DNA of 64,000 bases, taken from Utricularia gibba. Lineage: Eukaryota; Streptophyta; Magnoliopsida; Lamiales; Lentibulariaceae. A model generated the notes under the pieces. That model saw only the letters and a list, made by a program, of their open reading frames with translations. It was not told where the DNA came from and did no database searches. The stretch spans positions 1,488,001-1,552,000 of the forward strand of contig NEEC01000008.1 of NCBI GenBank assembly GCA_002189035.1. Reading direction: 5' to 3'. The position numbers were made by a program, and so were the translations under genes. Of this stretch, positions 215 to 62,865 are shown piece by piece. Each line of letters begins with the position of its first letter. Within the stretch, counting starts at the first letter, position 1.

Positions 215-819
215 ATGGATTTCCTGACACCAGAAAACGAGGATCAGATGGAAATGATGCTGATGCAAATCGAAAAGCATCTCCCTGATTTCTCATCCCC
301 TTCCAATAACAGCGGCAGCAGCAGCAACCCAATCATTGATTTCTCCAACCAGCCACCGAACCCGAATCTCCCTGTTTCCTCCTGCGAACCAGCAGGGGCA
401 ACTCCGTTCCTGCAACGGGAGGGAGAGGGCAAGAGGGCGTCTCCAATGGCGGCTATGCGCGAAATGATATTCAGAATCGCTGCTATGCAGCCCATTCAAA
501 TCGACCCTGAATCGGTCAAACCCCCAAGAGAAGAAACGTCAAGATCTCTAGTGACCCACAGAGTGTCGCCGCGCGACACCGTAGGGAGAGGATCAGTGAG
601 AGGATTCGGATTCTTCAGCGACTCGTCCCTGGGGGGACTAAAATGGACACGGCATCCATGCTCGATGAGGCGATACATTACGTCAAGTTCTTGAAAAGTC
701 AAGTGGAGTCTCTGGAACAGGTTTCGACGATCAATGGGACGCTGCCACCGCCGGAGTCTCACTTTCCGACGGGTACCTATTTTCCGGCGACCAACTTCGA
801 GGACCCATCGAGCTCTTGA
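215..819 (+). CDS. HECATE-like bHLH transcription factor, with an apparent one-base frameshift
   Basis: Single-exon gene for a bHLH transcription factor of the HECATE clade, nuclear proteins that act in gynoecium development and auxin/phytochrome responses. The start at 215 gives the HEC-type acidic N-terminus ([16 protein letters not shown]) and, near residue 85, the clade motif [17 protein letters not shown]. The basic-helix-loop-helix that should follow is complete but in the next frame: after codon 103 the +1 frame reads [20 protein letters not shown], then [20 protein letters not shown] and [19 protein letters not shown], ending at TGA 817-819. The break sits at the C5 run 521-525 followed by AA; one extra C or A there gives the family's KPPKRRN and a protein of about 201 residues, normal for HEC proteins. 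The unbroken first frame instead runs to a stop at 694. A sequencing deletion is more likely than a pseudogene because both halves are well preserved. Confidence 0.85.
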
Positions 820-1763
820 TTTCCAGTTGATTTTTGTATTTGCGAGGAGCAGAATGAATAACTATTAGTAGCTTAATGGCTTTGTTGATGAAGTTTAATG
901 GGCGCAGTGTTCCCAGAATTCGGTATTGTTAACGATATTAGCATCTAATCTCAACCGTTAAATGCCTCCGGCGTCACCGACGGCTGGGGTGAGACCGCGA
1001 CGGCAAATCCACGTGACGGTCTGACAGGGTGGGCCCGGTTTGTGCCTTGGAGCTCCACGTATATGACCAACGCTGCTCCTGCCACGTGAAACAAGAGTGG
1101 AGTTGATTTCATATTATGTTTTAATTTGATGCATACATGATTAATTTATATAAAATAATATTTTTTTCAAAATATAAATTTATTTTATAAATATTTTTAT
1201 TTAAAAATATATATATTTATCATGTATTTATATACAATTTATAATTAGATTTATATGTAATTCAAAAAATTAAAATAACAAATAACAATATTTATTTTAA
1301 TATCATGGAAATCATTACATCATCTGATAATGAGTTTACATTTAATTATGGATAAATATTAAAATAAAAAGTATTTATATATTTAATTTATGGTATTAAA
1401 TATGAATGCTATAGAATTATTTAATATAAAGTATTAAACTAGCCCTTAGTTCATTAAATAGGATTGACTTGGTTTATTTTTGCCAGATGTCCGAATCTTT
1501 GGGTCGGGTCCAGATTCTGGTTGGGTTGATTGGGTCGGGTTCAGTTATATCCGGATGGTCCAACTTTACCAGAGAGTGTTTCTGGGTATTCCCGTTCAAG
1601 ATTTGATCTTCAAGCATCTGTATGGTTTAGCTTGCATGGTTCCATTTCTCAGAATATTTTATGAGATAGACTTGCACTCATGAACTCCGCGTTATTACAA
1701 ATCCAACTATTAATGTCGGATTGCGGATTATTGTCACCAAAACCAGCAGCAATTGTACAGTGG
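820..1763. other. Spacer between HECATE-like gene and remorin 3' end
   Basis: No gene is recognised. Two CACGTG G-boxes occur at 1010-1015 and 1083-1088, followed by strongly AT-rich sequence to about 1440. The last few hundred bases probably include the 3' UTR of the leftward remorin gene. Confidence 0.5.
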
Positions 1764-4089
1764 CTAAGAAGAGTGGCAGGTGAAGTATCGAGTAAAGAAT
1801 CCACCACGAAGTACTCTCTGAGGCCATGTTGCTAGATGTGAAGTTCGATGGGCCGCCTGGTTAGCCATCATAGAGCTCCTCATGTGCTCTGCCTTCCTCT
1901 GTGCACCTTTAAGTTTGTTCATTATCTTTTCCATGGATGATGACCTCTTCTTTTCCAGTTTCATCTGCAGGGAAGGAGGAAATGGTGTAGGGATGATTTG
2001 ATGGAGTGGACTGCAGTGGAAACAGAACTCACAAGTACCTCTAGTTTCCTTATTGAAGCCTCCGCTTTTGCTTTTTGCAGATTCTCCCAAGCAGTGATCC
2101 TGGCTTCCTCCCTCTGTGCCCTGAAAGCATGCGTTTGATGTCACAAAGGTGTTTTTAGCGACAGAGCAAAGAAGAAATGTAGGTTTTGCATGATCCATTA
2201 CTTTGAAATGCTCTTTGATGCTCCTGCTGAAATGATCCAACTCTTCTTTGACCACCTCGACATGGTAACACGCTCCCCGATCGTCATGTTCCTGATTTCC
2301 TGTTGGGAGGCATGCAACTCTACAAGGGGGAGAATTGATGGTGTTGCAATGGAGAATGAGGAGATACGCTCGGGGGAGGAATTGGAGCTGTTCTCAGGAC
2401 TCATCTGAGTAGCCATATCCCTCCTTGAGACACCAACGGGTGTGTTGTTTGCAGCAGCATCCTCGATGCCACTGTAATTTCCATCTTGATTTAAACCTGA
2501 AAAAAGGAACTAGTTATGGGGAAAAAAAAAGACTGCAACTCCTGAAGAAAGTAAATAAACCACTACGATCCTGGTACAGCAATGCTTGCAGAGAGGAAGC
2601 AAGGATACCTTCATGTCCTGGAAATGCTGACTTAACTACCATTTCACCGCATCCATGAATACTAATTGACCTCGCCATGCAAGGATTTGTAGCTAAGATG
2701 AAGTTCCCGCCGTCTTGACTGATTCTATGCCGAGTAGATGAGGCATCTGCTGATGCAACTCCTGCAGAAATTGGTGAATCTCCTGCCATTTTCCCAAATT
2801 TTCCACTTTCAAAGGAAGGAACTGCCGGGGAAAACATTTGATAGTACGCCATCCCAGGATTTCCAAGAGGGCCACTTTTTGACTTTGGGCGTTGAGGCTG
2901 TTGGAATGAATTTCTAACCAAACCTTCACCAGAAACCGGACTAAAAATCCATCTCTCAGCATCTTCCCATTTTGAAGGCAGAGTTCTCCCATTGTTGCAG
3001 GCCATCAAAGCACCATTCATATTTCTTCTGTTCATATTACTATGGAGCGGGACACGCTCCGAGCTCCAACCTTTCTGAACCACAACATTAGAGTTCCTAT
3101 ATGTAGGAGTTCCTGGGCTCGGAAATGATCCTGTTCTTTGAGTTGAAGCTGATGGCTTTCGCATTAAACCGATTCTCGGTGATGAAGAGGTTACAGTATT
3201 AGATGACAAATTGTTAAGCTCCCCAGAAGCCAATCTTGGACGCTCTGTTTTCTTCAGTACGACTTCAGATTTTAGCCGTCTTTCCTGGCATTCTGACAAA
3301 AGAGTTTCCAGGAGAAATGAGAAATTCAAATCAACAGTAGCTTCTGGTTTCACTGTACGTATAATTCACATATTAATGTACCTTTAAGAGCTCTAGAGAA
3401 AGAATTTCTAGCAGAATCTAGGGCATTATTATTATTGTCATCCACAGTTGCCTCAGCTTCACTGGTATCCAGTTTTTGGCCTAACTCAGGAACATGATTG
3501 AGTGAAAACATGTTAGGCCTTTGAGCATGAGAAATCAAAATTGAAAACATAAGATGTTGCAAAATTTCCTCTAATGGCCCGTCATCGAAAAGCTCAAATA
3601 TTGTACCTTTCGCCTTCTCTTTTCTGCTGAGAACAACGCTTATCTTGTTCACAGGTGTGAGCTTGGCTGGATCTGGACCACCCCCTACTACTTCAGACCT
3701 TTCACGCCCAACCAAATTCTGTTTCAAACTCAAGAATTCAAACTCCGAACCTCCCATTGAACAAGATGTTTTTTTAACAGAAAAGAACTAGATTCAACCA
3801 AAGCATCATGCCTTTTGCGTACTTAAAACAACCGATAGCGGGTTCAAAGAATGAGTAAGAGCAAAGATACCAACAATCTACCGAAAAATGCAGCTAAATA
3901 GCAGAACATTACTTGAGAAACTGCGGAAGCAACAGAATCTGGGTCAGGTGGATCAGAAGCAAAAGAGCAGCGTTCCACACTGGCAGAAGTGGAAGAGAAC
4001 ATACTGAAGGTGGATTCACCGGTGAAAATAACCGAATCCGGGCTTAAATCACGCCCCGGATGCAGATGTTGAAAACCCACATCCAGCAT
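1764..4089 (-). CDS. Remorin family protein (long, disordered N-terminus)
   Basis: Plant remorin, a plasma-membrane/cytoskeleton-associated scaffold of membrane nanodomains. Coherent exons on the minus strand: 3913-4089, 3382-3718 (its 5' edge is the least certain), 2609-3292, 2202-2496, 2039-2120 and 1764-1964; all phases agree and predict about 591 residues. Family signs in order: start MLDVGFQHLHPGRD with a serine-rich head, ARNSFSRALKECQERR across an intron, LPSKWEDAERWI, SRRDMATQMSPE followed by RWSKK, then the remorin C domain REEARITAWENLQKAKAEA and KLEKKRSSSMEKIMNKL (coiled coil), ending in a Cys-containing FTRYFTCHSS tail. That tail resembles the RemCA membrane-anchor region of remorins (inferred). 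The layout fits the long-N-terminus remorin groups. The stop at 1764-1766 follows directly from the last exon frame. No frameshift is seen. Confidence 0.85.
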
Positions 4090-5605: not shown

Positions 5606-6859
5606 ATGGAGGTGGCGATGGCGGAGCCCGGCGAAATATTGCCTGAGAGAAATGTTGACATGTCGGCACTCTACGATATGCTTCGAGAAGCCAAGGCTTC
5701 TACGGAGGAAACCGTGGCGAAAATGCTGGCAATGAAGAAAGAGGCTCAGCCCAAGTCCCAACTTCGAGAACTTGTCACTCAAGTTCTCCTCAATTTCATC
5801 AAGCTCCGCCAGGTATCGTTAAATTTTATCCGTTTTTTGAGGAATATCACTGCATATATAGGACGCATTTTCCTGCAATCGTGTTGGTACTTGTTTCTTT
5901 CTTGCTAGGGCTTTTTGTTGTTTTGGTGAAAATTGGGATTTGGATATCTTTAGGCGTGGTTGCATTCATTGTTGATTGACAGCATATTCTGGATGGGATG
6001 AATGGGTTTGGATTCTAATATTGGTCCGTCTGTTTCTAAATGCTTTTAACAGGCGAATAGATCGATCTTGCTGGAAGAAGATAGGGTTAAAGCTGAAACG
6101 GAACGCTCGAAGGCTCCTGTAGACTTGATTACTCTGCAACTCCATAATTTAATGTACGAGAAGAATCACTATGTAAAAGCGATAAAGGCATGCAAAGACT
6201 TTAAAACGAAGTATCCGGATATTGAACTTGCACCAGAGGAAGACTTCTTGAAAGATGCCCCTGAAGATATCAAGAGCCCCACATTGTCAGCTGATATGCC
6301 TCATGATTTGATGCTGAAAAGGCTTAACTATGAGCTATTTCAGGCATGTGCTTTCTGTGATTGTACGTATCTTTCCATATTCTTCTAAAAATCAGGTTCC
6401 ATACTTTTTATCTCTATTTCAGCGCAAAGAACTATGCAAGCAGCGTGAGGAGTTGGAAAAGCAAAAGAATTTTCTCCAAGACACAATATCAAGCAGGAGA
6501 AAATTTTTATCTAGTCTTCCAGCATACCTTAAATCTCTCAAAAAAGCATCATTGCCTGTCCAGCAGCATTTAAGTTTCATGCACACCAAAAAACTGAAGC
6601 AGCACCAATTAGCGGAGTTGCTTCCTCCTCCTCTTTATATAATCTACTCACAAATGCTAGCCCAGAAAGAAGCCTTTGGGGAGAACATTGAACTGGAGAT
6701 AGTGGGGAGTGTAAAGGATGCACAGACTTTTGCCCGACAGCTAGCTAACAAGGACTCTGGTAGTTTGATTTATATTATGAATGCTTTTAATGGTCACTTG
6801 GGGTGTTATTATTCCAGCCATGTATCATATCTCTATAGTGCCCATGCTGCATTGTTTAT

Positions 6860-6902
<43 letters not shown>

Positions 6903-9100
6903 TAGCGGCTAGTTTTTGCTTCTACCCTCTACTCATTTGTAGTGAGAAATTCGTTGGTGCATGTTTTATAGTCTCTCACTTCTTGTTCTTTTTTGCCTGT
7001 TAATTTCAAGGAGTTTCCACACATGTGGATATATCAAGGTTGGATGAAGATGCTCTAGATGAGGAAGATGATGAACAAAGGAGGAGAAAGCGGTCTAAAA
7101 AAATACCAAGCAAGGAAAAACTTGACCGGTCTGGCATTTATCAAGGTCATCCACTTAAAGTTCTTCTTGATATAAATGATGATCAGAGTGCTGGTGGAGC
7201 AACGAGAAAACTTATAACTCTGAAATTCGAGTTCTTGTACAAGTTAAACATCGTCTGTGTAGAAGTTGATGGTTCCTATGGGTCTTCTCGTAGTGATACT
7301 TTGTGCAACTTGTTTCCTGACGACACTGGCTTGGAACTCCCTTATCAGGTTTTCTTATTTGTTCATGACTTGGTGACACTATGATTGTAATCTTTGTGTG
7401 TAAAAGTACTCGTTCTTTTCTGTGCAGGCAGTGAAGCTCTGTGTTGGAGATTCTGTTATGTTTGATGAAACAAGAACTTCACGGCCATTTAAGTGGGCTC
7501 AGCATTTAGCAGGAATTGATTTTCTGCCAGAGGTGTCGCCATTGATTTCAGTCACTGCCGAAACAAATGGTGAAAATAGTAAGCATTCACTCATCTTATC
7601 TGGTCTCTCGTTGTATCATCAGCAAAACAGGGTTCAAACTGTTGTTCAAAGGATACGTGACCGAGTGCATGCTCAAATGGCTCTTGAGTGAGTGACTATT
7701 TGAATTTATTGTGGAAAGTTTTGGTTGATGTGTGCTTCATATTAGGTATCGAGGTCTGAGTTTCTGTTTTGATCTCCAGTGCGTCACATTATATGAAAGC
7801 TCTCTCTGTGCGGATGTATTGCTTTTTGTGTGGTCGTTTTTTTTTTCTTGGTTCATGTTTGGTTTTTGGTGAGATTTGGTCCTTCTAAAATTTGATCAAT
7901 TAAATCTGGGAATTCGCCATATTATCTTACAGGCAGATACTTGATTTGTTAAAGACGCTTAATTGGCCACGGTTGATCTCTGACAATGTTCCATGGGCCT
8001 CCCATAAATCAGTCTGTTCCTTTAATGACTGGTATCCCATCTGCGCTACAGGCAATAATGGTATGTCTTCGGTTCATGCCAAGTTATTGAAAGGAAAGGA
8101 CCCTGAAAGCTTCAGACCAAATGTAAAAGTTGTTGCATCTATGGAAGAGATGGAGAATGTAAAGGAGGATGGGGAACTTCCATCTCTAGCTCCTGTTGGT
8201 AATGATGTTACAAGCTTGCCTTCAGGACAATCTGATTTTGAGCAGTCTTGGGATGTAAACTTAATCTCAAGGAGTATTGTATCCCCAGTCAGCAAGGGGA
8301 AATCGCCAAGCTTTAAAAAGATGGATGAGGATGTTGATCTGATGCAGCTATCTGACAGCGAAGTGGATGAGCCAGTCCAAGTGGAAGAATCTCCTGAAAT
8401 TCTGTCGACTGTGGGGAATCGAGGATCAAATTCTACCTCATGGGCCAACTGTGGTATCCAGGAATATATGCTTATACTCACCCAAAAGTTGGGCAATGAC
8501 GAGAGGACAATGAAAATGGAGGCCAAGGTTAAACCAGCTGTATCTTTTTCTGTTTTTCCATTTGGCAGGACCCTGCTATCTTGAAGAGGTTATTTATTTT
8601 CTTTCTTTCTTTTTTTTTCCCAGGTTAAGCTGACTCCAGAATATCCTCTTCGACCACCTCATTTTAGCCTGAATTTGCACAGTTCCTCAGGGGGGATAAT
8701 CATTTTAATGCAATTGGCTCCGAGTTTTTCAATGAGCTTCGGGCGCTTGAGTCAGAGGTGAGCACCTAATACACGGTGATTCCCGTGCCAAGATGAGCAG
8801 TGCCGTTTGTGATTTCTTACCTATGTGCGAAAACTCATGTGTTTCTTTTGTTCCTTGCAGGTGAATTGTCATCTTTTGAGATTGATACCCTCCGCTGAGC
8901 AGAATTTAGTTCTTGATCACCAAGTGCTCTTCCTTGCTATGCTATTTGACTATTTCCTGGATGATACTGTCATGTCCTCCGAGAAGAAACCCACGTCAAA
9001 AATTGACACCGGTTTCCCGAGCCGGTCCTTTCGTGGTCGAGACCACAGAAAGATGATTTCTTTAGAAGCTAACATCCGCTCTGCTAGCAATCCTCGGTAG
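5606..9100 (+). CDS. THO5: THO complex subunit 5 (THOC5 homologue), with an apparent one-base frameshift in exon 7
   Basis: Subunit of the nuclear THO/TREX complex, which couples transcription to mRNP assembly and export and, in plants, to small-RNA production. Eight exons: 5606-5812, 6053-6343, 6423-6759, 7011-7348, 7428-7687, 7933-8527, 8624-8757, 8861-9100. Recognisable blocks are ALYDMLREAKASTEETVAKM, LQLHNLMYEKNHYVKAIKAC, LELFQ-type exon end joined to RKELCKQREELEKQKNFL (coiled coil), LPPPLYIIYSQMLAQKEAFG, an acidic EDALDEEDDEQRRRKRSKK segment, and the C-terminal ARSFRGRDHRKMIS-like end (here SRSFRGRDHRKMIS). Intron 2 starts with GC, not GT. Exon 7 is 134 bases although its flanking phases require 135; the frame changes at the G6 run 8690-8695, upstream of the conserved NHFNAIGSEFFNELRALESE. 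With one more G the protein would be about 800 residues, as expected. Its 3' end converges with the ABF gene. Confidence 0.92.
6861..6901 (+). repeat. Poly-T tract of 41 bases in THO5 intron 3
   Basis: An uninterrupted run of 41 T lies in the intron 6760-7010, before the 3' splice site at 7010. I see no SINE body or target duplication beside it, so it is listed as a simple repeat. Its true length is unlikely to be reliable. Confidence 0.95.
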
Positions 9101-9537
9101 ACACCAACAGTTCAGGTTCTTGCTTGGTTTTGTTGGTTCTCAGATAGGATTTTTCTGTGGCTTGGGAGATTCCTGCTGACTATGAAATTCGCTTCCCGGG
9201 TCAGCTTCTACTTCCTCGAAGGAGGGTTTTTAGGACAAACCAAAAGTTGATTTTCATATTTTTTATCACAGAATTTGGGATTCTCAGTCGATTGTGTACT
9301 CAACACATCCCAGATGACACCTTTGATGCTGACAGGAATTCCACCTATTCTTATTATTTCTTAAATCTGGAATATTACATTCGTCAAATCGGAATTCTAG
9401 AACTTAGGATCACAGAAACTAAACATGCTTGCTTTTGAAACGTTGTTGTCCGCTTCCTATTCGGGTACTACTAGAAGATGGTGTTCCTGAGTAATTATCT
9501 ACAAGCCGAGAACGATTGAGTTCCACAGCAGGGTTTA
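9101..9537. other. Convergent 3' region of THO5 and ABF
   Basis: A 437-base stretch between two convergent stop codons; it must hold both 3' UTRs and terminators. No other feature is seen. Confidence 0.6.
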
Positions 9538-11014: not shown

Positions 11015-11216
11015 CCCGATCGCCCAATCACAGACTCCCCAAACCTGTAAAACCTGAAACAACGGTGGAGAACACTGAAAACCAGCTAAAGAGACGATGA
11101 TTCGACTGAATCGCGCAGTGAAGGAGAAGGGTCTGAGCAATTCAAAGTCCTGTCTGATTTCTTATATACATATATACACACACAGAGAAAGGGGGAAAAA
11201 TAGAAGGGAGGCTTAC

Positions 11217-13022: not shown

Positions 13023-14566
13023 TCCTCCACTCTTTCAACACTCAATACAACGGAACGAGAATTTTCTCAGAGCTTGCGGTGGTCAAAGTTGTAACCCTTC
13101 GTGCAGTTTGAGATTATTTCCACGTTCAAGACATTCAATGCAATAGAATAAACGATTCATGTCCTTTTTTGTTTGTTTTCGGGAAGAGGTTGTCTTTTTC
13201 TAACACTTTCAAGTTTGGAAAAATGATAAACTACAAATCCAGGCGATTTCAAATCATGGGATTCAAGACTTTACAGTTTAATTTAATTCATGATTAAATT
13301 TGAAAATAAGTTTAAAAATTATTGAATTAGATTCGATCCATTATAAAAAAATAATTTTAATTTGTTTTGTAAAAACAAACCCAAGTGAGATCTTTGGGCT
13401 TGACCATGGTTTGGTTAGGCCTTAGGAAGGGTGGACTGGATGCAAAGACCCAACATTGACCACGTTAGAGGAACGACCACGTGTGTCTTGTGGAGTCCAC
13501 GATGGAAACGGTTAGCCCATTTTGTTTCCATTTATAACCAAAATGAAGATAAGATATTTTCCTGAAAAAATCATTCCTTTTTTGAAAAGGAATTTCCTTT
13601 CTAAATGTGGTTGATTCGATTCCTTTTTTTTTTTGTTTTTAAGTTGTGAAATTTCACTATTTTTTTTTATAAAAAATCCAAAAACTGACTCATGAAAATT
13701 CGATAACATTCTTTATGATTGCTAAGGGTTATTTGATAATAGAGTATAAAATATGTATATCTCAACTTATACATATATCATTATTTGATTTATTAGTATA
13801 TATATAATAATATTATATAATTATATCAATAATATACTCATTTTTTAAGTATATAAATGATATATACAAATTAAGGGAATGTCTAATTATATGAATATAA
13901 CTCATATATTCAAAATTCTATTTTACGTATATCAAACATTATATATATATATATATATATACTTAATTACATTATATTTAAATATACTAATATTTTTCTA
14001 TCAAACGATATTGTAGTTGAATCCCTAACTAAAGAGCTTATTTCCTATCTCTTCCGTTTAGTCATGATCTTGAAACCTTAAACTGGTACTTAACTAAATA
14101 GTTCCAACATGCCTTACCACATTCCGACCAATCTTTAATGGTTGACATCTCGAAATTGTAAAGTCTTCAATTGATCCATCCATCCTTCATCCATCTCTAA
14201 ATTTCATTGAAAATAATGTGTTGGGCTTGTTTTTGGGAATCAAGATCATAGTAATGAATAATTCAATATAGACATATTCAAGTTTGATTACTATTAGGGT
14301 CTTGAAAACAGCCTCATATTTCATGTTAGAAGTAAGAATCATTTTGAAATTTTTACTGTTTTTGAAGAATAAATCATTTTTGATAAATTATATATGATAG
14401 TAGAAGTAAATTCCAAATAGACCCTGGGTCGTGGCTGCAAGAAAAAAGGTTAATATAGTCTTTTTCCAACATATGCAGAGCATCCACGTCACATATAAAC
14501 ATGTATAAATACTGTATTTGATAGATTGCAATTTGCAGGCTGCCGAGTGGTATGCTGATCTTCCAT
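13023..14566. other. AT-rich spacer left of the BEL1-like gene
   Basis: Contains the promoter side of the BKI1-like gene and the 3' side of the BEL1-like gene. From about 13720 to 14010 it is almost pure A/T with repeat character (listed separately). No coding sequence recognised. Confidence 0.5.
13737..14010. repeat. AT-rich dispersed repeat, copy 1
   Basis: This stretch shares a core with 36965-37280: both contain CGTATATCAAACA, then an A/T tract, then a block close to ACATTATATTTAAATATACTAA. It also holds an (AT)11 microsatellite at 13940-13961. The shared order of blocks suggests two decayed copies of one repeat; ends and class are not resolved. Confidence 0.45.
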
Positions 14567-20570: not shown

Positions 20571-21721
20571 TCATTTGTTGGGGAGGTTCTTCAATCTCTT
20601 CGCCGCCTGAACGAATCCGCTGATCACCTGCAGTTCATCTACTTGCTGCGAGAAACAGAGTGTGAATTTCAATCGGGCAATCTACTGTTGAAACGAAGTA
20701 TGCGAACGAACCTGTGAAATGAAATGCCTTTGGACAACATCGATCAGCTGCTCCCTCGATGGATTCGGCACTGCATCCGCCTGAAAAGTAGCATAAGAAG
20801 GAGGTGATCACTGAGAAATTAATGGATTCAGGGTACCCCAGGTTCCAGATTGTGGAGAAATTCAACATTTTTCAGAAGAAGAAGACTCACAAGGTTAAAG
20901 TGTAGCAAGTATTTCCACAGTGCATCCATTTCAAGTTTCCCGAGGTCTACCTTCTGGGTGTGAGGAGTCAATGGGCGGCATCAATGATCAAGAAAAGAAG
21001 TAAAGCATAAACAACCACGGGATAAAGCGAATTATTATACCATAGAAGCTTTTAGGTGGTCTTTGGATGGCAAGTCGCCGGAGAGGGGCCGGCGGTGAGT
21101 TTTCCTACATGTTTCAAGGGGCTTTTGCAGACGAATCTTTTGTTTTGGCAGCCTTTCACCGTGTTCAAAAGCTGGTAAAAGACAATGGGAATTAATAAAC
21201 CTGCTGCATTTTCTAAATGGGGGTTCTACAAAAGGAATCCTATGTGAGGATCAATTGAACAAAAAGAAGAAAGGAAACAAACCCAGATTAGAGCCATCGC
21301 ATTGGGCTTCTTCATAATCAAGATCGCGATCTTCCTCATTCCCACTCGGAGCTTCAATCACAGTTAACGCATTCCTCTGTAGCTTCACCTCGATTCCATT
21401 CGTTAAAACCTACTACCATGAAACGATCGGATTGAAAATCAGCAAATGAAAATCTGGGTTCTCACAAACACCCCCAAATTTTCAGCTTCGAACTTACCAG
21501 CCAATGCCATCCCCGAGACCCACTGCCTTCTTCACAACACCACGAACACCCACAAGAACAGATTTGGTCCTGTTGTTTCCGGTGACAACAACCTTAGTAT
21601 TCCGAGGCAGCACCGCGAGCTCCTCCTCACTGCTATCGCCGCCGCAGGAATTCAAGTGTGAGGAGCTTGGATGCGGAAACTCCCCACCGAAATTGCTGCA
21701 ATCCGAGGGCGTTTCGAGCAT
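20571..21721 (-). CDS. AFR/SAP30-like Sin3-histone-deacetylase complex protein, with an apparent one-base frameshift in exon 1
   Basis: Plant SAP30 FUNCTION-RELATED (AFR)-type protein; family members join histone-deacetylase complexes and help repress the flowering gene FT. Minus-strand exons: 21498-21721, 21283-21409, 21041-21171, 20891-20953, 20712-20780, 20571-20645. Seen: start MLETPSDCSNFGGEFPHPSS, PRNTKVVVTGNNRTKSVLVG, VLTNGIEVKLQRNAL after intron 1, then the C-terminal Sin3-binding region from KLEMDALWKYLLHFNL through NPSREQLIDVVQRHFISQ to VDELQVISGFVQAAKRLK. Exon 1 is 224 bases but joins exon 2 at phase 0, so one base is missing. The break is at the C4 run 21511-21514 (G4 on the coding strand): the family's GLGGWHWL is read as GLGDGIGW followed by a stop. 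With the base the product is about 229 residues. Confidence 0.87.
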
Positions 21722-37280: not shown

Positions 37281-37340
37281 TACTCCCCTCATGTCATGGA
37301 CATTTTGAATAGTTGTCGTCTTGGTGTGAGCACCTACAAG

Positions 37341-37971
37341 TAGAGATGTTATAACGAATGAACAATTCGTGTTCGAATTGTGTTCGACTCGATTAAGATC
37401 GTTTATTTTCTTTTAAATAGTATAAACAAACGAACAAAAACAAAACTTATGTTTGATTACTTTATTAAACAAATACAAACAAGATCAATATCCGATTATT
37501 TTTTATTTTGTTCGATTATAATATATAATATCATATTAAAATTATGTATTTTAAATTGATATAAAATAATAATATAAAATATATTATATTAATCAATATA
37601 TAAACATAATTTAATTATTTCTACAATATATATAATATTAGAAATTATTTTTTGTGTTAATATTTAAGTTATAAATAATTTTTGACCATTTTTTGATTAA
37701 AATATATGAAATACTAATTTGTATTAAAAATATTATATTTATATTTATGTTACAATAATAATTTGTTTATGTTTATGTTAAAAAATAAATATATTATATT
37801 TGTTCATGAATATTCGTGAACGATCGTCAACTTTAAATAAACGAACATGAATAAAATTTTTGTTCGATTAACTTAAATAAACAAATATGAACAAATTTTT
37901 TGTTTGAAAAAGTTAAAAAAACGAACACAAATATAGGTGTTCGTATTCATTCATTCGATATAACATCATTA
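37341..37971. mobile_element. Non-autonomous DNA transposon (MITE-like, hAT-type target duplication)
   Basis: About 631 bases bounded by inverted ends: the left end reads TAGAGATGTTATAACGAATG and the reverse complement of the right end reads TAATGATGTTATATCGAATG, matching at 17 of 20 positions. It is flanked by CCTACAAG (37333-37340) and TCTATAAG (37972-37979), which match at 6 of 8 positions with two C/T differences; 8-bp duplications are typical of hAT elements. The interior is very AT-rich, with sub-terminal GTTCG/CGAAC motifs in both orientations and no coding frame. I infer an old non-autonomous insertion. Confidence 0.7.
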
Positions 37972-37992
37972 TCTATAAGATATGGACTTAAA

Positions 37993-38227
37993 CAGTGTTC
38001 CGAAATATTTCTCCAGAGTATTTCTATTTCTCGAAAAATATAAAGTAGAAATAGAAATAATTTATAGAAATATAACTCTTGTTACTTTTAATTTTTACTG
38101 TTCTTATAACTTGATTTTAGAAATATTTCTACTATAATTAAAAGTAGAAATTAATTGTGTTCCTTATAAAAATTTTTTTTGTTATTTCAAAAATAGAAAT
38201 AGTAACCAGAAATATTCAGGAACACTG
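37993..38227. mobile_element. Second MITE-like foldback element
   Basis: About 235 bases with inverted ends: left CAGTGTTCCGAAATATTTCT, right-end reverse complement CAGTGTTCCTGAATATTTCT, matching at 18 of 20 positions. Similarity extends outward a few bases (ACTTAAA against ACTAAAT), so the true ends may be near 37986 and 38234. The interior is AT-rich with further self-complementary AGAAATA/TATTTCT motifs and no coding frame. CAGTGTTC ends are common in plant hAT-like MITEs. No clear target duplication was found. Confidence 0.65.
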
Positions 38228-38752
38228 ATTTAGTTTTATTCTTGGTTTTTATGCTCCATTATCGTTCCTACTTTTTTAAAAAAAGAATTAATAGATTTGA
38301 TATTTATAAGATTAATAAAATTGGAGCTCTTTGTTTTTTTTGTTCCAATTGCAAAATTTGAAATTACTTTTATATCTCTAAATCGACCTTCAAATGATAT
38401 AAATTATAGAAAACAAAAAAAGTTGATGATGGCATTGTTGGGCGATTGTCATTGCGGCAACTTATAATATTAAATACTTTATTGCAGATCAAAAAATCAC
38501 TTATTTTTCCAAAGTCATTAAATGCTTAAATATTTTAAACTTTAATCCTATGTGGGGCCCCCTACACTTATTTTTCAAATATATATGACAAAGCAAAAAA
38601 AAAAGAAATATTTTTGTAAATATTTAAAAGAAGAGGGGTGAAATAAATAAACAAATTTATGGCCCCCACCCTCTCAATAAATATTAGCATCCCATGATGT
38701 AGAAATTTTTAGGTGGAGTTGTTAATAATAAATAAATTCCGTCTCTCCGCAG

Positions 38753-45208: not shown

Positions 45209-46818
45209 ATGTCGTCCGCCAGTTTTAGGAGGAAACAGCGGTGGTCGCCGCAGCCATTGACGCCGTTGATGGAGGGTCCTGACATGGGAATGGAGGATTC
45301 CGAGGGGAGTAAGAAGGAGAGTTCCTGGGATTTGATTAGGGATTGGTTTAAAATGCAGAGGATTGTTCCTGGAAGTGGAGGTGGTGGGAGCAGTTCTTCT
45401 TCCCCGGTGTCGTCGGTGCAGGGTAGTGCTAAAGCTCAGGATTTGAGGCTTCTACTCGGTGTTCTTGGTTGCCCACTTGCTCCGATTCCGATTCCGAAGA
45501 AACCCATTTCCATTGCACACATTAAGGATGTCCCCATTGTGAGTATAGCACATTCCCATTGTGGGCTGATTTGGGTTTCTCTCCCATTCTTCTCACTTGA
45601 TTTACTTCGGATTCTTCATATTGTTCTTTTGAGATGTTCACAGGAAGCTTCCACTGCCCACTACATAATTCAGCAGTACTTAGCGGCAACGAGGTGCTCG
45701 AAGCACGACGCCGGCGCTAAGAGTATGTACTGTACAGGGACGGTGAAGTTGGTTCGGTGCGAAACCGAGATCTCCACGGGCAAAAACGTGAGGACATTGG
45801 GATCGAGAAGCAGTGAGAATGGGTGTTTCGTTCTCTGGCAAATGTCTCCCGGAATGTGGTCCCTGGAACTTGCCGTCGCCGGTCACAAAGTCGTCGCCGG
45901 CAGCGATGGCAAGATCGTGTGGCGCCACACGCCATGGCTCGGCGCTCACGCCGCTAAAGGCCCCCAGCGCCCCCTCCGCCGCATCATTCAGGTAGCCCCC
46001 GTTGGAAGTAACTGTTCACACTTTCGGTACTGTTCAGTTTGATTAAAAAGACAGGTGCTTGATAAAATGGAGATTATTTCATTAATTAATTAACTAATTA
46101 ATGTCTTGGGAAATCTGCACCGTCCACTGATCTCAGATCCGGACGGCTGAGATCGTACCATTTTTCCTTCCCTTCTTGGGATCGTCGAAGAAACAGACAC
46201 TTTAAAGTGCACGAAGCATATTTTGTTTTTACATGCTTTTGAGCTGCTTTCAAATTTCATTATCCGCTTTTACTTTTTTTTAATCTGATCAATTAATCTG
46301 TGCCGTTGGATGGAAAAAAGGGATTAGATCCACGGAGCACAGCAAGCCTGTTCGCGAAAGCGCAGTGCCTGGGGGAGAAGCCGATCGGGGACGACGCCTG
46401 CTTCGTACTCAAAGTGACGGCAGATCGGGCGGCGGTGATGGAACGGAACGAAGGCCCGGCGGAGGTGATACGCCACGTGTTATACGGATACTTCAGCCAG
46501 AAGAGTGGTCTTCTGATCTATATGGAGGATTCGCATCTCACGAGAGTTCATTCCGCGGAGAACGACGCCGTTTACTGGGAGACGACGATCGGGAGTAGCA
46601 TCGGGGAGTACCGCGACGTCGACGGCGTGATGATCGGACACCAAGGGAGGACGGTGGCGACGGTGTTCCGATTCGGTGAGACATCGATGCATCATAGCAG
46701 GACGCGGATGGAGGAGATCTGGAGCATAAACGACATCGTTTTTAATGTACCGGGGCTCTCGTCGGACTCCTTTATTCCGCCGGCCGAAATCCTGGAGGCG
46801 GCGTCGGCATCCCCTTAA
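45209..46818 (+). CDS. DUF620 family protein (plant-specific, unknown function)
   Basis: Plant-specific protein with a DUF620 domain; no biochemical function is established that I know of. Three exons, 45209-45538, 45644-45991 and 46321-46818, give 391 residues. Seen: a basic Ser-rich head, the acidic/tryptophan segment SSWDLIRDWFKMQRIVPG, a Gly/Ser linker, LRLLLGVLGCPLAPI, STAHYIIQQYLAATRCSKHD, and the conserved core from FVLWQMSPGMWSLELAVAG and KIVWRHTPWLGAHAAKGPQR through CFVLKVTADRAAVMERN, YFSQKSGLLIYMEDSHLTRV, YWETTIGSSIGEYRDVDGVM and VFRFGETSMHHSRTRMEEIW. The acceptor before GLDPRST is the purine-rich GGAAAAAAG, weaker than usual but phase-correct. Frame intact. Confidence 0.88.
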
Positions 46819-47125: not shown

Positions 47126-50100
47126 TCAGCTGATGTTCCCTTGGCAGATGTATTTGATCTGTGGGGGAAAAGAAGCAAGCTATAGATCAGTAAACCTTTG
47201 AGTTTCATGAACATTTCTGTGTTTTTGCTGTGAAATGAGGAGGATGAGTTGAGTTATGTGCATACTTCAAGATACTCATCCAACCCGTATTTAGATCCTT
47301 CACGGCCAAGGCCTGATTGTTTCATGCCCCGAGGGGAGCCATCTGCATGGCATGGAGTGATCGTCAATGAAGAGATGCTAGAAAAGTGAAGAAGAAAGAA
47401 ATTAACCTCCATGGTAACTATTGCTTCATTGACTCCCACAATCCCATATTCAAGAGCTTCAGGCACACGCCATGAGCGTTGGGTGTTGGTTGTGAAAACA
47501 TATGCAGCCAGACCTACAGGAGAGAGCATATCTCGATGAAAGATGATCCTTTTCAAGCACTGGTTAACTAGTAACAGCTTGAGCATGCATGTTTTCTGAA
47601 ACAGTAGTTTCATTTGCATATTAAGAGTCAGATAGGATCGATCTTTCACATGGCAGCCATGTATCTTGCTCATTGCACCATATGTACTAGGAAGGGAAAG
47701 GGTTTTGATAGATCAAGGTTCATAAGAACCTGCATTAGTGTCGTTGGCGATACGGATAGCTTCCTCTTCAGTTTTGAACTTCACAAGCGGTGCAACTGGT
47801 CCAAAAATCTCCTCCCTGGATAGGAAAGGTGGCAACTTGGAATGAGATCAGAATTTCATCTACTCTTGGACAACAATTTTCCTATGGCCGAGGTGAATAT
47901 TGTCCAATAAGTGAATGCATACGTTGATAAAATTTCCAGACAGAGATTACCTTGACAGAAGCATGTCGCTTTTGATATCGGTTATCACTGTAGGCTCATA
48001 GAATGTCATCCCAAGACTGTGCCTCTTCCCCCTGTAATGACTTTTGCACCCTTTAACCAAAGAGGCCACCATTACTATCACAACAAAGCCTTACAGTGGA
48101 AGAGATCTTTTGCAATCTTGTGTGAATTTTGACTAAACGTGTGAATATTGGCCCATTTTATATAAACATTTCACTCTGTCACGAAATCAGTATTTTAGCA
48201 CTAACTTTATGGAGACAAATGAGCTAACCTTTGAAACGGCATCTTGCACAAATCTTTCAACCTGAGGAACATTTCTGGAAAAATTCAGCTTTAGGCATCA
48301 ATAATCTTGCATTCAAGGAATCCAGGGTGTGTTTAGATCGAATGACCTTGTGTAATGCAGCATCATTAATCAAAGGGCCCTGAGTAAAATAAAAATTGAA
48401 CATCAAGCACCGCCTACAGGTTCACTACTAGAAGTTATGGAGATGGATATACAGTAAATTATCTGCCCTCCCTGAACTCAGGATACCTGTTCCACACAGT
48501 CATCAAATCCACCCCCAACTTTCATGCTCTCGACAGCAGTGGCAAAGGCATTTGCAAATTTCTCATATATTCCTACATTCAGTGGTTAACAGGATCAAAA
48601 ATAAAAGGCACAAAGCGACAGGAGCTAGAATTACCAGAACTTGCAGCATACCTTCTTGCACTAGCACTCTGTTTGCACAAACACATGTTTGCCCAGTATT
48701 CCGAAATTTGGTTGCTAGCTGCAATTCCAGTTTTATCACTTGCAGAATTTCCATAACCAGAGAGCAAGAATAACAAACTAAAACAGAGCAACAAACATGT
48801 TTCCAAGAATAAAAATAAAATAAAATAAAACATAGTAACGACTCCTTGATTTTTCCATTTCAGAGTATCCTAAACACTATACTATCGGACTGTTCATGAC
48901 TGTAAAAAGAAAGTCAATCAAAAGTGGTGGCTTATGTTTAGGAATTAGAGATGCAATGGGAAAATTATCATACAGGTCCTAACACAAGGACTGGAATAAC
49001 AAGGAAATAATCAGAGTGACTTACAGTTCCCCTTATAGCAAGATCAAGATCTGCATCATCAAAAATAATGCATGGTGCATTGCCACCAAGTTCAAGGGAC
49101 ACCTAACATGATAATAAAAAGAAGATTCACAAGCCTGAAATTCTAAAGATGCAGTTCTAATCTAACCTTTTTAACTGTTGATGAAGCTCCGCTCATTATC
49201 TTTTTTCCAACAGCTGTAGAACCTGTGAAAGTAATCGCTCTCACCTATGAAATTAAATACATATTCTTCCTGTTAGGGGACTTTTGAAATGGAAATATAC
49301 AATATGCCTGTTATATTTCGAGAACCTGAGTGCTCGCAAGCAAAGCTTCTCCAATCTGAGGTGCATCTCCCATTACAACATTAATTGCTCCCTGTTTTGG
49401 GAGACAAAAAAGGTGAAGTGATAATCATCCTTGGTCAGCCATGTCCTCTTGGTAATAAAAGCTCAGGCTACACACATAATTTGCAGCTTCCACCTAAAAC
49501 AAAATATCAGCTACATTCAACCAGACACTACTGGACACATATTTTCCCATAACAAGAACCGGTTATCAGATGGTTGTGGATAGCTCAAGCCACAGTGCTC
49601 TCTTACTCCTGATAACTTTAAAACCAATTTCAGAGATGTCCCATTTCCCAAATGTGTGCAACTCAGTATCTGCATGATTCATTAAGGTATCAGACTGAAG
49701 GAGACCAGAATTTACCGGTGGCATCCCTGCTTCAATGGAAAGTTCAGCCGCAACTAATGCTGTCAATGGTGTATATTCCGAAGGTTTAACCACAACAGTG
49801 CATCCGCAAGCAAGGGCAGGGGCAACCTGGCTTATGTTGCTATGTAAGTAACAACGAAACCATATCTCACAAACTTGAGATACAACAGTTCACTGACCTT
49901 GCGTGTAATCATTGCCAAAGGGAAGTTCCATGGTGTAATTGCACCAACAACACCAACTGGCTGCAAGAGAATTTTCCGTTTTTACTTTTTTTAAGCCAAA
50001 CATAGGCAATCAAAGTAAAGAAAATACAGATGGGAAGAAAATGAAGAAAATATGAACTAAAGAAGCAATGCACAGGAACGTGAGATGGGAATGTAAAATA

Positions 50101-51538
50101 ATGATGTTGGAAACATCTTCAAACACACCTTCACCACCACAGGACCCCTTGGATTTAGTCAATTTAGTTTCACTAAGAGTTTGCAGTCATGAAAAGTCAG
50201 GCTTACTACTCATCTACAGAACAATTAGCATTTTTTAACTCCAGGTATAAGGTGGCATTATTGTTCTTTTGACATGGTAGTGTGAAAACGAGGGTTCGAT
50301 TTTGTCATTCTAGATAGGATCATCAATTCCAAAAGTTCTTCTTAAGTCTTAACCTGCTTCAGGACAAACAAACGGCGGTCGGAGAATGTTGCAGGGATGA
50401 CGTCACCATAAATTCGCTTAGCCTCCTCAGCATAGAACTCTATGAAACTCGCACCAAAGTTAACCTGTGATTGCATGCATCCCCAAAAATCCTCCAACAA
50501 AAATAGAAACACTGATAACCTTACAGTAATAAGGAACTAATTCACCTCGCCAATGGCCTCTTTTAAAGGCTTTCCCTGCTCTAAGGTTATCAGCTTCCCA
50601 AGTTCTTCCCTCCGGCTAATTATCAAATCATACCATTTCCTAAGGCACTTGCTTCTTTCAGCAGCAGCGAGCTTGCTCCAAGCTTTAGTTACAGCATGCA
50701 GTCAATTGGATTCAGCAAAGACATCCTCTCATTTTATGAGTGAGTATTGGCATGCAAGGAAGGGCGTACGAAAAAAACCATCTACAATCGTAAAGATAGG
50801 ACATACTCACCAGCAAATGCTTCATGAGCTGATGCAATAGCATCATTTGTCTCCTTGCTGCCCATACAAGAGACACTCGTTATGAGCTCCCGGTCGCGGG
50901 ATTAACAACCTACCACAACAGTGGAGCAATGAAGGTACCACAGAAAAGACTATCTTTTTCAATAGCCTTCTTATACAATGAGAATCGAACCTCGAGAGTT
51001 TTCCCATCGTATGCATCAACAAATTTTCCCCCAATAAAACCTTGACTTTGTATCAACCCTGCACTCTTTAGACGTTCTGCAACGAGTTTTGACTCTGTAG
51101 ACATCTGCAGTAAAGTAAACATAACCACACTACACAAAAAATCAAGAAAAATAGCTACACTGAATCTAAAAGATTCTGTGAGTTAAAATCTCCACATAAT
51201 CGATTCTTAAGCCATCAGCCATTTTGATAAACAACCCAGTAACTAAATCTCAAAGATTACATGCATAAACCAATCGCCAAAGTCACACGTTCTCCGATCA
51301 ACATTGGATCACAAGCCAAACAGAGTAAAATAATGCATTTCCCGATCAACTGTGATCACCGAAAAGACATAGCATTACACCCGCCAGCATAGAGTAACTG
51401 TGCGAGTCAAACCCCCGTCACCCAATCAAAATACACCCAGAAAATAACCTGACGGGAAAATATAGCAGCCTTGACGGTGCAGTGATAACGATATGCTGCG
51501 AATCTAGGAAAGAGGGAACTGCAACGGGTGAAGGCCAT
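47126..51538 (-). CDS. SSADH: Succinic semialdehyde dehydrogenase (ALDH5F1 type), 19 exons, three apparent one-base frameshifts
   Basis: Mitochondrial ALDH that oxidises succinic semialdehyde to succinate with NAD+, the last step of the GABA shunt. Minus-strand exons: 51449-51538, 50991-51104, 50811-50909, 50546-50682, 50354-50464, 49898-49960, 49716-49826, 49326-49391, 49167-49244, 49025-49102, 48652-48718, 48487-48572, 48347-48379, 48229-48261, 47951-48050, 47730-47815, 47407-47513, 47266-47342, 47126-47158; about 523 residues. Exon 1 is a basic presequence ([19 protein letters not shown]). Seen: [41 protein letters not shown] with the catalytic Glu, [11 protein letters not shown] with the catalytic Cys, and [19 protein letters not shown]. 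Exons 3, 15 and 18 are each one base short of their required phase, at C-runs 50889-50891, 48028-48032 and 47327-47330 (G on the coding strand); each break hides a stop a few codons later. Everything else is conserved, so I treat it as a working gene. Confidence 0.93.
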
Positions 51539-54016: not shown

Positions 54017-56128
54017 GATCCAAAACTGAAGAAGAACGAAGGCGGTGGCGGAAGCAACAGGGAGCAGGGGAGGCGGCGCGTGAAGGGCAATCGAAACGCG
54101 GCGGCGCGTGAGGAGGAAAGGGGATTAAGGAGTGAGCATGGTAGTGAGGGGGTAGTGAGGATTATGTAGGAAGAGGAAGCGTGATTTGAGCGAACAGGGA
54201 ATAGGCTTTTTTTGTTAATTGGGATCGGAAGCGGCCGGGGGAATATGTACTTGCCGTGGCGCCGGCGAAGTTTGGGGGTTACGCTCCTCCTTTTCGCTGG
54301 CTTTCTTCCTTCTTACTCAAAGACTGCCATCGCCGTCGCCCCCATCTCCAGCTTCCTTCACACCGCCATCGCTGCATCATTTTCATTCTTTCTTTCCTTC
54401 CCTTTTATAATACGTGAAACACGTAAAACTTATTTTTAATAACATGTCAATTTTTATTCAATATAAATATAATTATTTTTTCTCTAATATAAAATATCTG
54501 GACACCATTTATCATACCATTAATATATAATATCACTTTTTTTGTATGGGTACCAATTTGATTAATCTTTTTACATGATAAATAAATTAATAATTTCTAA
54601 TTATTATACATGCATCATTAAATATACTTTGAGAATGAAATGAAAATACATAGATAATTTAGATACATCAAGGTTATGGGATTATTCTTATTATCATAAT
54701 AATAATAAAACTCTTGTGATGCCAACCAACACAGGGATGCGCTGGAGAAGGTGATGTCTAGTTGGGCGCATTTGAACAAAGACGATCGGAAAAAAAGTCG
54801 CTTTGGAAAAAAGCTGAAGTGGAGCAATTCTGAGACACAAAAGCCCGTAGACACGGAGCATGTTGAGCAGATAATGCTCGAGAGAGGAGGACTTGTATAG
54901 TGAAGATCCAGATATGAAATTTAAGAGAAGGTCCAACTTCATGATTCATTTAGAAAATTAGTCAATTTGGTCGTTTTCTTTTATATACTATGATAAAAAA
55001 TTTATATATATGATAATCATTTTTATCATACATTCAAAATACATTAATCAATTATATAATACATATATCTCAAGTGAGAAATGCTGATGATTGTTTTCAT
55101 AGTGATAACCTGAGATGGAGTTGATCTAGATGAGGAATGATTGAGTAGGAAGATGTAAGCTAACCTAAGTATTGAAACTCAAAATCTAATGGATAAAATG
55201 AGTACATATCAAGTTCAAGTATATAAAAAATGTAAATCATATTAAAAAATATTAAATTCAATCGATTATTAATGATTCATAATTATTTATTATATATTTG
55301 ATTATTATATTTTCATTTTTCGATATGAAATTATATATTTTAACACTAATGAGTGGAGCAAGGTACCTCATGATCAAGAAAACCTCAAAAGCCATGTCAA
55401 CTAGGAAACCCCTCCATATAATGGCGTTCCATGATGAAGGATGAAGTGTGTGAAAAGTGTTGCACATGTGTGGATATCAATCAAGTGTATTTTTAATACA
55501 TTCAAGAGTTCTAATACATTCATACAAAAATTTTTAATTGAAATTGTATTTTTTTCACATATTTCATCAATAATGTCGTATTTGTAATACACCCTAATGC
55601 ATCTTGAGTATCTCGATAACAACCAAGAGTGCTCCGAACAATACCCAAGATTGAGTATGTTGATCATATATCATGGAAAATTTGCTTGCCTTTCACAATG
55701 TTTAAATAAAAAAGATTATATTATATTTTAAATGGGCCCAGTCATGGTCATCAGAAATTACTAACTAAAGGTCAAATTTTTAATATATTAATTATTATTT
55801 TTTTGGCTGGAGTGAAGCATGACGTCCGAAAGGAAAAATTTACGGGCCGAAAACGGGGTTCCCCGGGCCCAAGCAGAATTCGGCGCATGCGGATCACTGT
55901 AGCATAGTAACGGCAGCCTTCACTAAAATACGCCTCTTCTTCTTTAAAGAACCTCGACTCTCTATAAGACAATCCGACATCCTTCTAGAATCCTCGCGAG
56001 CATATTCACTTCGAATCGACGTCTCCCGAGGTTTGCATTTGAACAGCGCAGGTATGGTTCTCGACTTTTGCCGATATTGATTGGGATTTGGGTGGTGGGT
56101 TTAGGATCCTGTGGTGTGAATTCTGCAA
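54017..56128. other. Divergent spacer between X8 and PGK genes
   Basis: The left part is GC-rich X8 promoter with a long pyrimidine-biased stretch near 54290-54410. 54430-55780 is AT-rich with no gene. 55800-56128 is the probable PGK promoter and leader, with a TATA-like CTATAAG at about 55960. Confidence 0.5.
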
Positions 56129-59427: not shown

Positions 59428-61843
59428 AACCTGCAACCTCGATGACCTACCTACTACCTATGCCTCATACTACACACAATATGCTCTTTTATTTCGTATT
59501 TTAAATAAAATTAGTATATATCAAATTACATAAAATTCATTTTTTAAATAATGGAAACTAGTTTTACAATTATTTTGAAATATTGAAAATTAATTATATC
59601 TAATTTTCAAATAATATGGATAACTCTAAAAAAATTTCAAGAGGTTTGCCCATTTACCCAAATGGAGTAGTGAATTCATTTCAATTTTCTAGAATAATAT
59701 TAATTTAACGCTAAGGAACCCTAATTAATGATCAAATCTCCATCCCTTGATTCGCTTTGGGAAACCATGGTGCAGTAACTCCCATTGATTGCAATAATTG
59801 TCTTGTTTTTAACCCAAGAGACATGGGACACGGCACACTTCCCGAGTCGGACACCACGATGCGTTGCAAATCGCTAGAAAGAACAAAGTGGTAATTGAAG
59901 TCTAGAAAAGGGCTGCCGGAATGTGACGCACCCAACTCATAAATGATGCCTTTATTATTCTTCCACCCTCCACGCTGTTCGTTTTTAATTGCCGTACAAT
60001 AATACATAAATTCGGACGCGCATCGTGTCCGCGTCCGTGTCCCATGGAACTCCCCCCCCTAATTACATACATCACATATGCCCGGTTCGAATTATTATTA
60101 TTATGAGACATGGAATAAAAAAATATATTCAACTTGGAACCATGGTAAACCGTACAGCGTACAACTCTAATGCACGCTCGTATTTTACGAGTATCGAATA
60201 CATAATCATTAAATGCACATTTACTCAGATTGTACCAAGTCGACAGACAGAAGCGGATTTATCCTCGCCACCTACTCAAATTTTATATTTATTATTCGGG
60301 TGGTTTCTCGATACTCGAAACAAAATTGATTATTTAGCTTAAATAATATCAAATAATTATTGAAGCAAGTATTTTACTCAGTTAATAATATATGCTTATC
60401 GTTTCTCCGGAGACAAATTTGGTTGGGCTTCGTGGTGGGTCTCTATTGGGCCCAATTCAAGTCCACGAACAAAGATCAATTTCCCTGAGAAAAATTCAAT
60501 ACCTTCATTACCATAGAAATAAAAGTGTATGTTTTGTGGAGCTCAAGAACTTTCATTTGGGATACTTGGTAATTAGCCATCTCTCGTCAAAAAATCAACG
60601 AAAACAATCGAAAAATCAGCCCTCAGATCGACTAGTGCTTGACATATTGAAACAATTGTATACAAACCAACTACCTTGCAACATGGATTATGCAATTGGT
60701 TTTTTTAGTGAAATATATCAAATTACATTATACGATATTATTCGTTTTAAATATTTAATAGGCGTTTGTTCGTGATTATAGGCCTTTGATTTCGGGCCTT
60801 CTAATCCAATCTGAGCCTTCATAATGATTTAATGAGCCCCATTCGGTCCAATAGGCCCCTTTTGTTTTTTCACAGTGATGGACGGACGGTGTGGGATTTT
60901 TATTTGTATATATTTGTTGGGTAATTGCAACACGAATTTACAGCGGTAAGTAGAAAAACGACGTCACGGGGGTGAGCAGCGTTATTTATTACGCACGCTG
61001 CCAGCGAGGATTTCCACGCCCTTCTGAAATTTGTTCTTTTCCGATGTGAACTGTCCAAGAATCGCATTTATTACAACACAAACGTCTCTGTCCCCATCTT
61101 AAAAATTCAAATCCCAATCCATTATTCAACATATTTATTTCCCCCAAAATCCTTATCATTATTATTATTCTCCCCTTCTTATCCTTATTTTTACATAAAA
61201 CAAAATATCTCATAATTTTCTAATTAAAATAGAAACGCTTTCTTATTTTTAACTAATTTTTACTTCCTATTTTATTTCAATTAAATATAAGAAAAAAGGC
61301 TGCAGAATCCCCACGATTGGTCTCGGTGTTCTTTTTTATTATTACATTATAATAGCCCAAAAATAATTATTTAGTATTTATTGTTGTTTACTGTTAGTTA
61401 CCGTAGATAGACAGCGGTAAGTTTGTGGCATTTTTGGGCAGTTACTTTTTAGGGTTGGGGGGAATGCGCCCATTTAAGGAATGGGGTGCGACACACGTGA
61501 GTTATGATGATGGTTAAATGCGAATCTGTTGTAATAGCAGGTTAAGCCGAGGATTAGGACAGTACGGAGGGATTAACCGGAGGAGTGCAATGCAAAATGA
61601 CCGGCTAGCGACATGGAAAGACAGTGAAGTCACCGGCTTTTCTGGTAACCGCCAAAATATATTTATATCCTTCGTCTTTATCTTCCATCGCCCCGCTTCA
61701 AAACAAGCGACTTTGCCCATCTCCAGTCCTGCTTTCTCTCCATATTCCAGCGACAGGGTGGAAACCTACTTTCCTTCTCTCTCTCTCTCTCTACACAATT
61801 TTCATACACAGAAACAGGGACATAGATATATATTTGGGTGTGG
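59428..61843. other. 2.4-kb spacer and BOI-related promoter
   Basis: 59500-59700 and 60150-61350 are AT-rich. A 127-codon open frame at 60392-60775 has no recognisable domain and is not called. The last 250 bases are the leader and promoter of the BOI-related gene, with a CT-rich tract just before the start. Confidence 0.5.
61776..61792 (+). repeat. (CT)n tract in the BOI-related 5' leader
   Basis: About eight CT units lie 52 bases upstream of the start codon. CT-rich leaders are common in plant genes, so this may contribute to expression; no more can be said. Confidence 0.85.
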
Positions 61844-62865
61844 ATGGCGGTTGAGGGTAATTTGCTTCTTCCTCTGAGGTTTGCTGGGAACAGGTAGATT
61901 TTGAGTTCTTTCATTGTTTTTTTTTTTAAGAGTGTTGAGCTTTTGGAGTGGTGTTGATCTTCGTTTTGTTTTTGGGAGTAGAGAGGTGGTCGGGATGAAT
62001 TGTGTTGACGGAATCGTAGGCGGATGCGGGATGCCGTTATCGCGGCCGTCGATAGCGACGGATGGTATGCTGCCGGTATACGGCGGCGAGGTGTGTGAGA
62101 CGACTGTGTATCCACTGCCGGCGGTTAATTCAGGGAGTGCTGCGGTAGCGCTCCCATCGAGGAAGAGGTGTCGAGAAAGTGCGATTCCGGGGAACTTGTC
62201 GTTTCTGGGCGATGATCGTGATCTCTCGCTTCTTCTTCAACTGCAGCAGATGGAGATGAATCGGCTAATTGCTCATCATGTGAGTTTTTCTTGCTATTTT
62301 TCGTAGAATTTATCTCGGTACGTTCCAACCAAAATTCGAGTTGAGAATCATATTGAACGCAGACGGAGAAATTGAGGGGGAAATTGACATGCGGCGGAGG
62401 GATTGCTCACGGCGGATCGCCGATGCGGTGGAAGAAAGTCTAATGAAGAAACTGAGAGTCAGAGATGCAGAAATTGAGAAAATGGGGAAATTGAACTGGG
62501 CTTTGGAAGAAAGAGTGAAATCCCTCGCACTCGAGAACCAAATTTGGAAAGAGTTAGCCTCGACGACCGAAGCAACGGCGAACGCCCTCCGCTGTACCCT
62601 CCAGCAGGTTCTCGAACAAGTCCAAGAAGACAAGCCCAGCAATCAAAACAACGACGCAGAGTCGAGTTGCGGCAGCAGCTCCGCCGTGCACCCATCCACG
62701 GATCGACGCCTCTGTACAAGCTGCCGGAACGAAGAACCCTCCGCACTCCTCCTCCCCTGCCGCCACCTCTCACTCTGCACCGTGTGCGCCGCGTCGCGCG
62801 ACACGTGTCCCGTTTGTAACGCCGTTAAAACCGGCAGCATTTGTGTGAATCTCGCCGGCGTCTAG
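61844..62865 (+). CDS. BOI-related (BRG-type) RING E3 ubiquitin ligase, with an apparent one-base frameshift in exon 3
   Basis: RING ligase of the BOI/BRG (SBP1) family, which limits cell death, modulates DELLA/GA responses and takes part in stress tolerance. Three exons, 61844-61893, 61982-62279 and 62363-62865, give about 283 residues when the break is allowed for. Seen: family head MAVEGNLLLPLRFAGNR, SRKRCRESAIPGNLSFLGDD, LQQMEMNRLIAHH at the exon 2 end, then the WRD-type coiled coil with RIADAVEESLMKKLRVRD, KMGKLNWALEERVKSLALEN and ATANALRCTLQQVLEQV, and a C-terminal RING: CTSCRNEEPSALLLPCRHLS, LCTVCAASRDTCPVC. Intron 2 (62280-62362) ends at CGCAG before ACGGAG. Exon 3 is 503 bases but needs 504; the frame changes at the G5 run 62376-62380, where family alignment (HHTEKLRGEIDMRRR) requires six G. 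The uncorrected frame stops within six codons. Confidence 0.88.

Follow-up and report, generated by a model that had tools for sequence, protein, structure and literature searches.

Seven single-base frame breaks in a stretch of the Utricularia gibba assembly: probable consensus errors in otherwise intact genes

In a 64,000-nucleotide stretch of the Utricularia gibba genome assembly GCA_002189035.1 (contig NEEC01000008.1, positions 1,488,001 to 1,552,000, or G000:C414:1488001-1552000 in our own numbering; hereafter the window), the reading frames of five genes are broken at seven places, and each break amounts to the net loss of one base. The genes encode a HECATE-like (HEC) bHLH protein, THO5, an AFR-like protein, succinate-semialdehyde dehydrogenase (SSADH) and a BOI-related RING protein. 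We conclude that the seven breaks are very probably errors left behind by the consensus step of a long-read assembly, and that in the plant itself these genes are whole. Systematic assembly error was also the explanation offered in the original prediction, an earlier reading of the same DNA, and it is supported by the same loss spectrum in unrelated conserved genes throughout the assembly (100,091,633 bases in 516 contigs) and by disagreement between redundant contigs.

Frame breaks within the window

The gene models of the window were rebuilt by hand. The original prediction had placed seven one-base losses in particular runs, and all seven runs were recovered at the positions given in Table 1, each in need of a net gain of one base. 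The strongest case is the SSADH gene. Its duplicate on contig C3 (L081) is intact over 19 colinear exons, and in an exon-by-exon alignment of the two copies coding lengths differ at the three breaks only, each time by −1 in the window copy; this leaves exons 3, 15 and 18, at 99, 100 and 77 nt respectively, one base too short. The copies are separated by 203 substitutions, distributed 49/28/126 over codon positions 1, 2 and 3, with a synonymous divergence (dS) of 0.42, a nonsynonymous divergence (dN) of 0.075 and a dN/dS ratio of 0.18. Compared with this duplicate, the window copy has no nonsense codon and no other coding indel. The hallmark of a pseudogene (dN/dS near 1, or nonsense changes) was not seen in this pairwise test, which is compatible with a very recent loss. 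With X placed at the breaks, 482 residues of the SSADH protein align gaplessly with a solved structure of the enzyme (PDB 8of1), and the protein matches the Pfam family Aldedh (PF00171, E 2e-169).

The THO5 gene (FmiP_Thoc5, PF09766, E 5e-107) is the only full copy that we found. Its break rests on exon phases and stands without a genomic comparison, the break-bearing exon being absent from the duplicate on C3 (L086, C3:3318842-3321060). This duplicate lacks several exons and has no counterpart of window positions 7725-8942, about 60 bases replacing about 1.2 kb there; it appears to be a truncated copy left after genome duplication. One intron of the window THO5 contains a long poly-T stretch (6863-6902) that the duplicate also lacks.

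The three remaining genes each have an intact relative that is one base longer at the break. The HEC gene (HLH, PF00010) is 80.7% identical to its duplicate on C3, which over a longer stretch reads CCCCCGAAGAG where the window has CCCCC-AAGAG; against the copy on contig C411 the window aligns without gaps over 450-716. The gene that we take to be AFR-like (SAP30-function-related) has weak similarity to PF23112, below the cut-off of that family. Two of its six genomic relatives were examined at the break, L096 and L097, and these read CTCGGTGGATGG and CTTGGTGGATGG, respectively, where the window has CTCGG-GGATGG; both are one base longer and use the same donor. The C3 duplicate of the BOI gene shares the window acceptor, gcag|ACGGAGAAA.

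In order of position, the seven sites have G/C runs of 5, 6, 4, 4, 5, 3 and 5 bases. When random single-base losses were simulated in the same window exons, about 2% landed no more than 3 nt from a G/C run of at least 5, and the observed mean run length was never reached in 20,000 simulated sets of seven losses. The coding sequence sampled, about 17 kb, holds 103 G/C runs of at least 4, of which 6 are affected, and 125 A/T runs of at least 4, of which none is affected (Fisher p=0.008). The earlier statement that the lost base sits in the G/C run is right statistically and uncertain site by site. The HEC site is ambiguous; at SSADH break 5 (48028) the duplicate has AAA after GG, so that the missing base may be an A; and at break 4 (47327) the duplicate reads GGCGG, where the missing base may be a C whose loss itself created the G4 run. 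Among the other window genes checked, no extra break was found in the remorin, bZIP, BKI1, BEL1, DeSI-like, IDD, RADIALIS-like, AKIN-beta-like, RING/VWA, DUF620, X8, PGK and WW-like genes.

Table 1. Positions of the five affected genes and the seven frame breaks in the window
Feature	Position	Strand	Description	Basis
HECATE-like bHLH gene	215..819	+	single exon, one break (−1)	frame 1 until KPP, then frame 3
Break 1	521..527	+	CCCCCAA, Pro third codon position, lost base ambiguous	C3 duplicate CCCCCGAAG vs window CCCCC-AAG
THO5 gene	5606..9100	+	8 exons, exon 7 one base short	exon borders and lengths
Break 2	8690..8695	+	G6 in THO5 exon 7 (8624-8757)	exon phases: 134 nt, 135 required
AFR-like gene	21281..21721	−	two exons seen	protein search of own genome: 6 paralogous loci
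Break 3	21511..21514	−	G4 in sense (C4 on +), AFR-like gene	intact paralogs L096, L097
SSADH gene	47126..51538	−	three breaks	19 exons, AG/GT borders
Break 4	47327..47330	−	G4 in sense, SSADH exon 18 (47266-47342)	duplicate TTCGGCGGT vs window CTCGG-GGC
Break 5	48026..48032	−	G5AA in sense, SSADH exon 15 (47951-48050)	duplicate GTGGAAAGAGG vs window GGGGAA-GAGG
Break 6	50889..50891	−	G3 in sense, SSADH exon 3 (50811-50909)	duplicate AACCGGGGAG vs window GACC-GGGAG
BOI-related RING gene	61995..62865	+	two exons, intron 62280-62362	gene model; RING PF13920
Break 7	62376..62380	+	G5 in BOI exon 2	C3 duplicate L085 one base longer at 62380

The same losses elsewhere in the assembly

Outside the window we placed 23 single-base losses on many contigs: 19 in GRAS genes, two in KCS genes and two in HSP70 genes. 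These three Pfam families, together with selected stretches, are the basis of our genome-wide rates. The GRAS losses were located by frameshift-aware alignment and pairwise DNA alignments; one GRAS copy, L063, which shows a loss and a gain at about 40% identity, was omitted as too divergent. That all events in the window are losses, as the original prediction held, is borne out (7/7); the events placed elsewhere are all losses as well (23/23), and no gain stood up among the GRAS, KCS and HSP70 genes. Apparent gains in two GRAS copies (L061 and L066) and one KCS copy (L073) were traced to introns or to a base lost from the reference copy.

The preference for G/C runs recurs in this larger set. 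A G/C run of at least 3 is touched by 20 of the 23 losses (null from random losses simulated in the same genes 0.18, p about 1e-12) and a run of at least 4 is the site of 13 (null 0.05); 0 of 23 lie at an A/T run of at least 4. The GRAS family is mostly intron-free, and many of its copies are divided between two frames; in DELLA-type copies, several of the losses hit the part that encodes RPGGPP, which has DNA runs from G5 to C7. HSP70 copies with losses keep 94-96% protein identity to an intact reference. The losses at the GRAS, KCS and HSP70 loci are spread across the genome irrespective of gene or selection. Coding sequence has lost a base about every 2 to 3 kb both in the window (7 losses in about 17 kb) and, by rough estimate, in the GRAS genes (19 in about 43 kb). 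In eight H3 genes no break was seen; apparent breaks in two H3 copies are introns, not frameshifts.

The comparison of the window with C3 also works in the opposite direction. The C3 duplicates of the window's DUF620 (L087), bZIP (L090) and remorin (L089) genes each lack a single base within or next to a G/C run, at places that correspond to window positions 45307, 10871 and 3048, where the window copy is whole. Judged from these alignments, the losses are the same error on another contig.

Redundant contigs allow the same locus to be read twice, and they disagree by single bases, for the most part in G/C runs. C316 and C412 differ by one substitution and 10 indels in 4.1 kb, with every missing base in C316 and the indels dense at the contig end. 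Over 1.1 kb, C422 and the end of C414 differ by 4 indels and by no substitution; the missing bases are all on the C414 side, and in the gene within this overlap the C3 duplicate agrees with C422 at comparable places. C343 and a mid-contig part of C328 differ over 3.7 kb by 6 substitutions and by 5 single-base indels, of which 4 lie in G/C runs. Consensus disagreement with few substitutions is clear in the first two pairs and partial in the third. Since substitutions would greatly outnumber indels if the differences were polymorphisms and the first two pairs show the reverse, the redundant contigs point to consensus error rather than mutation. A further candidate pair, C241/C304, has 16 substitutions in 3 kb, and was left unused as a tandem copy or haplotype.

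Assembly error weighed against mutation and mis-modelled genes

The U. gibba long-read assembly described in a review (PMC5793159), probably the one studied here, was built by HGAP from 88x single-molecule real-time (SMRT) reads, with an N50 of 3.4 Mb. In our reading the consensus step very probably skipped single bases, for the most part where G or C is repeated a few times; accurate short-read correction would not have removed these losses here, and the error affects the whole assembly. As the cause we infer the PacBio/HGAP/Quiver platform and under-calling of G and C by its chemistry. On this account the breaks are not a real biological feature, and the class of error is well known. In an Enterococcus faecium genome assembled with HGAP3 and three rounds of Quiver, 561 single-base homopolymer deletions remained and were detected by Illumina reads (PMC4888979). 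Such Quiver-only PacBio continuous long-read assemblies resemble the present one in that single bases are lost from runs with hardly any gains, and the frequencies are of similar order (561 in about 3.2 Mb, or one per 5 to 6 kb of genome, against a loss about every 2 to 3 kb in the coding sequence of this assembly); what differs is the explicit preference here for G/C over A/T, and that short runs (2-4) are also affected. C-rich six-mers are under-represented in raw RS II P6-C4 reads (PMC7671305), which agrees with the G/C preference but is no proof for consensus calls. Oxford Nanopore assemblies likewise carry gene-breaking single-base deletions in runs; there, A/T runs are the most prominent in the k-mer bias of R9.4 reads (PMC7671305), whereas here A/T runs of at least 4 are spared. 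A search of the literature turned up no account of frameshift errors in the assembly.

Several points weigh against consensus error as the explanation. The pairs C316/C412 and C422/C414 lie partly at contig ends, and C343/C328, given its 6 substitutions, may represent two haplotypes. The platform is inferred rather than shown, and the evidence consists of the contig sequences of a single assembly of the species.

The original prediction went too far in holding that genuine mutation would not favour such a pattern. Slippage in runs yields single-base deletions, and the deletion bias of decaying pseudogenes favours them as well, so that the pattern alone is compatible with mutation; mutation is excluded by the redundant contigs together with purifying selection, not by the loss pattern alone. 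Were the frameshifts real, the affected genes would have become pseudogenes recently, or would be null alleles in the heterozygous state, as expected in a lineage that has duplicated its genome and lost genes, where intact duplicates of the SSADH, HEC, BOI and AFR-like genes could make the loss of one copy tolerable, and frameshifted copies beside intact duplicates are indeed what pseudogenes look like after whole-genome duplication. We consider this very unlikely. Unlike such pseudogenes, SSADH combines three independent breaks, all of a single lesion class, with a dN/dS of 0.18, no nonsense substitution and no other coding indel; no second full copy of THO5 was found beside that of the window; losses alone occur, at a similar rate, in unrelated families; and redundant contigs differ in the same way within one locus. 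A true mutation process, specific for G/C runs and biased to deletion in a small genome, would account for the strongly loss-biased spectrum, but selection would purge losses from HSP70, DELLA-type GRAS and THO5 genes, where the rate is similar, and paralogous exons that have accumulated many substitutions show hardly any frame-breaking indel outside these runs; we find it scarcely credible. Nor do we give appreciably more credence to the broader proposal that the plant itself deletes bases from G/C runs genome-wide and breaks conserved genes, with duplicates or repair of the message at the RNA level preserving their function.

That the gene models are wrong, and that alternative splice sites or small introns restore the frames without a lost base, has a practically negligible probability. 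It finds its one foothold in the BOI gene, where an alternative acceptor at 62377 (GAG|GGG) restores the phase without a lost base; use of this site would delete the conserved TEKLR, and it is not the acceptor of the duplicate. In SSADH, AFR-like and HEC the intact copies share the exon borders or have no intron, and are one base longer. The earlier argument that affected exons are one base short of what the splice phases require accordingly holds for SSADH exons 3, 15 and 18 and for THO5 exon 7, and is weak for BOI.

Consequences for use of the assembly, and the duplicated surroundings

If the rate given above holds, many coding genes in the assembly carry at least one false frameshift. Many of the genes that appear damaged are probably healthy. 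False frameshifts would lead automatic annotation to split or truncate genes. Errors of this kind mimic both pseudogenes and deletion bias, in a species that is studied for the miniaturisation of its genome and for gene loss, and work on gene content, small-deletion spectra or protein families that uses this assembly needs correction with accurate reads first. The small contigs C316, C422 and C343 (about 30 kb each) duplicate stretches of large contigs, as redundant or haplotype contigs, and they could be used for measuring the error rate of the assembly.

Most of the window (5600-62900) is duplicated as a syntenic block at C3:3.319-3.440 Mb. The duplicates of the HEC and remorin genes map to another part of C3 (1.554-1.559 Mb), where their order is inverted. 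Multi-copy repeats with tens of genomic copies occupy window positions 13715-14012, 37333-38240 and 55170-55350.
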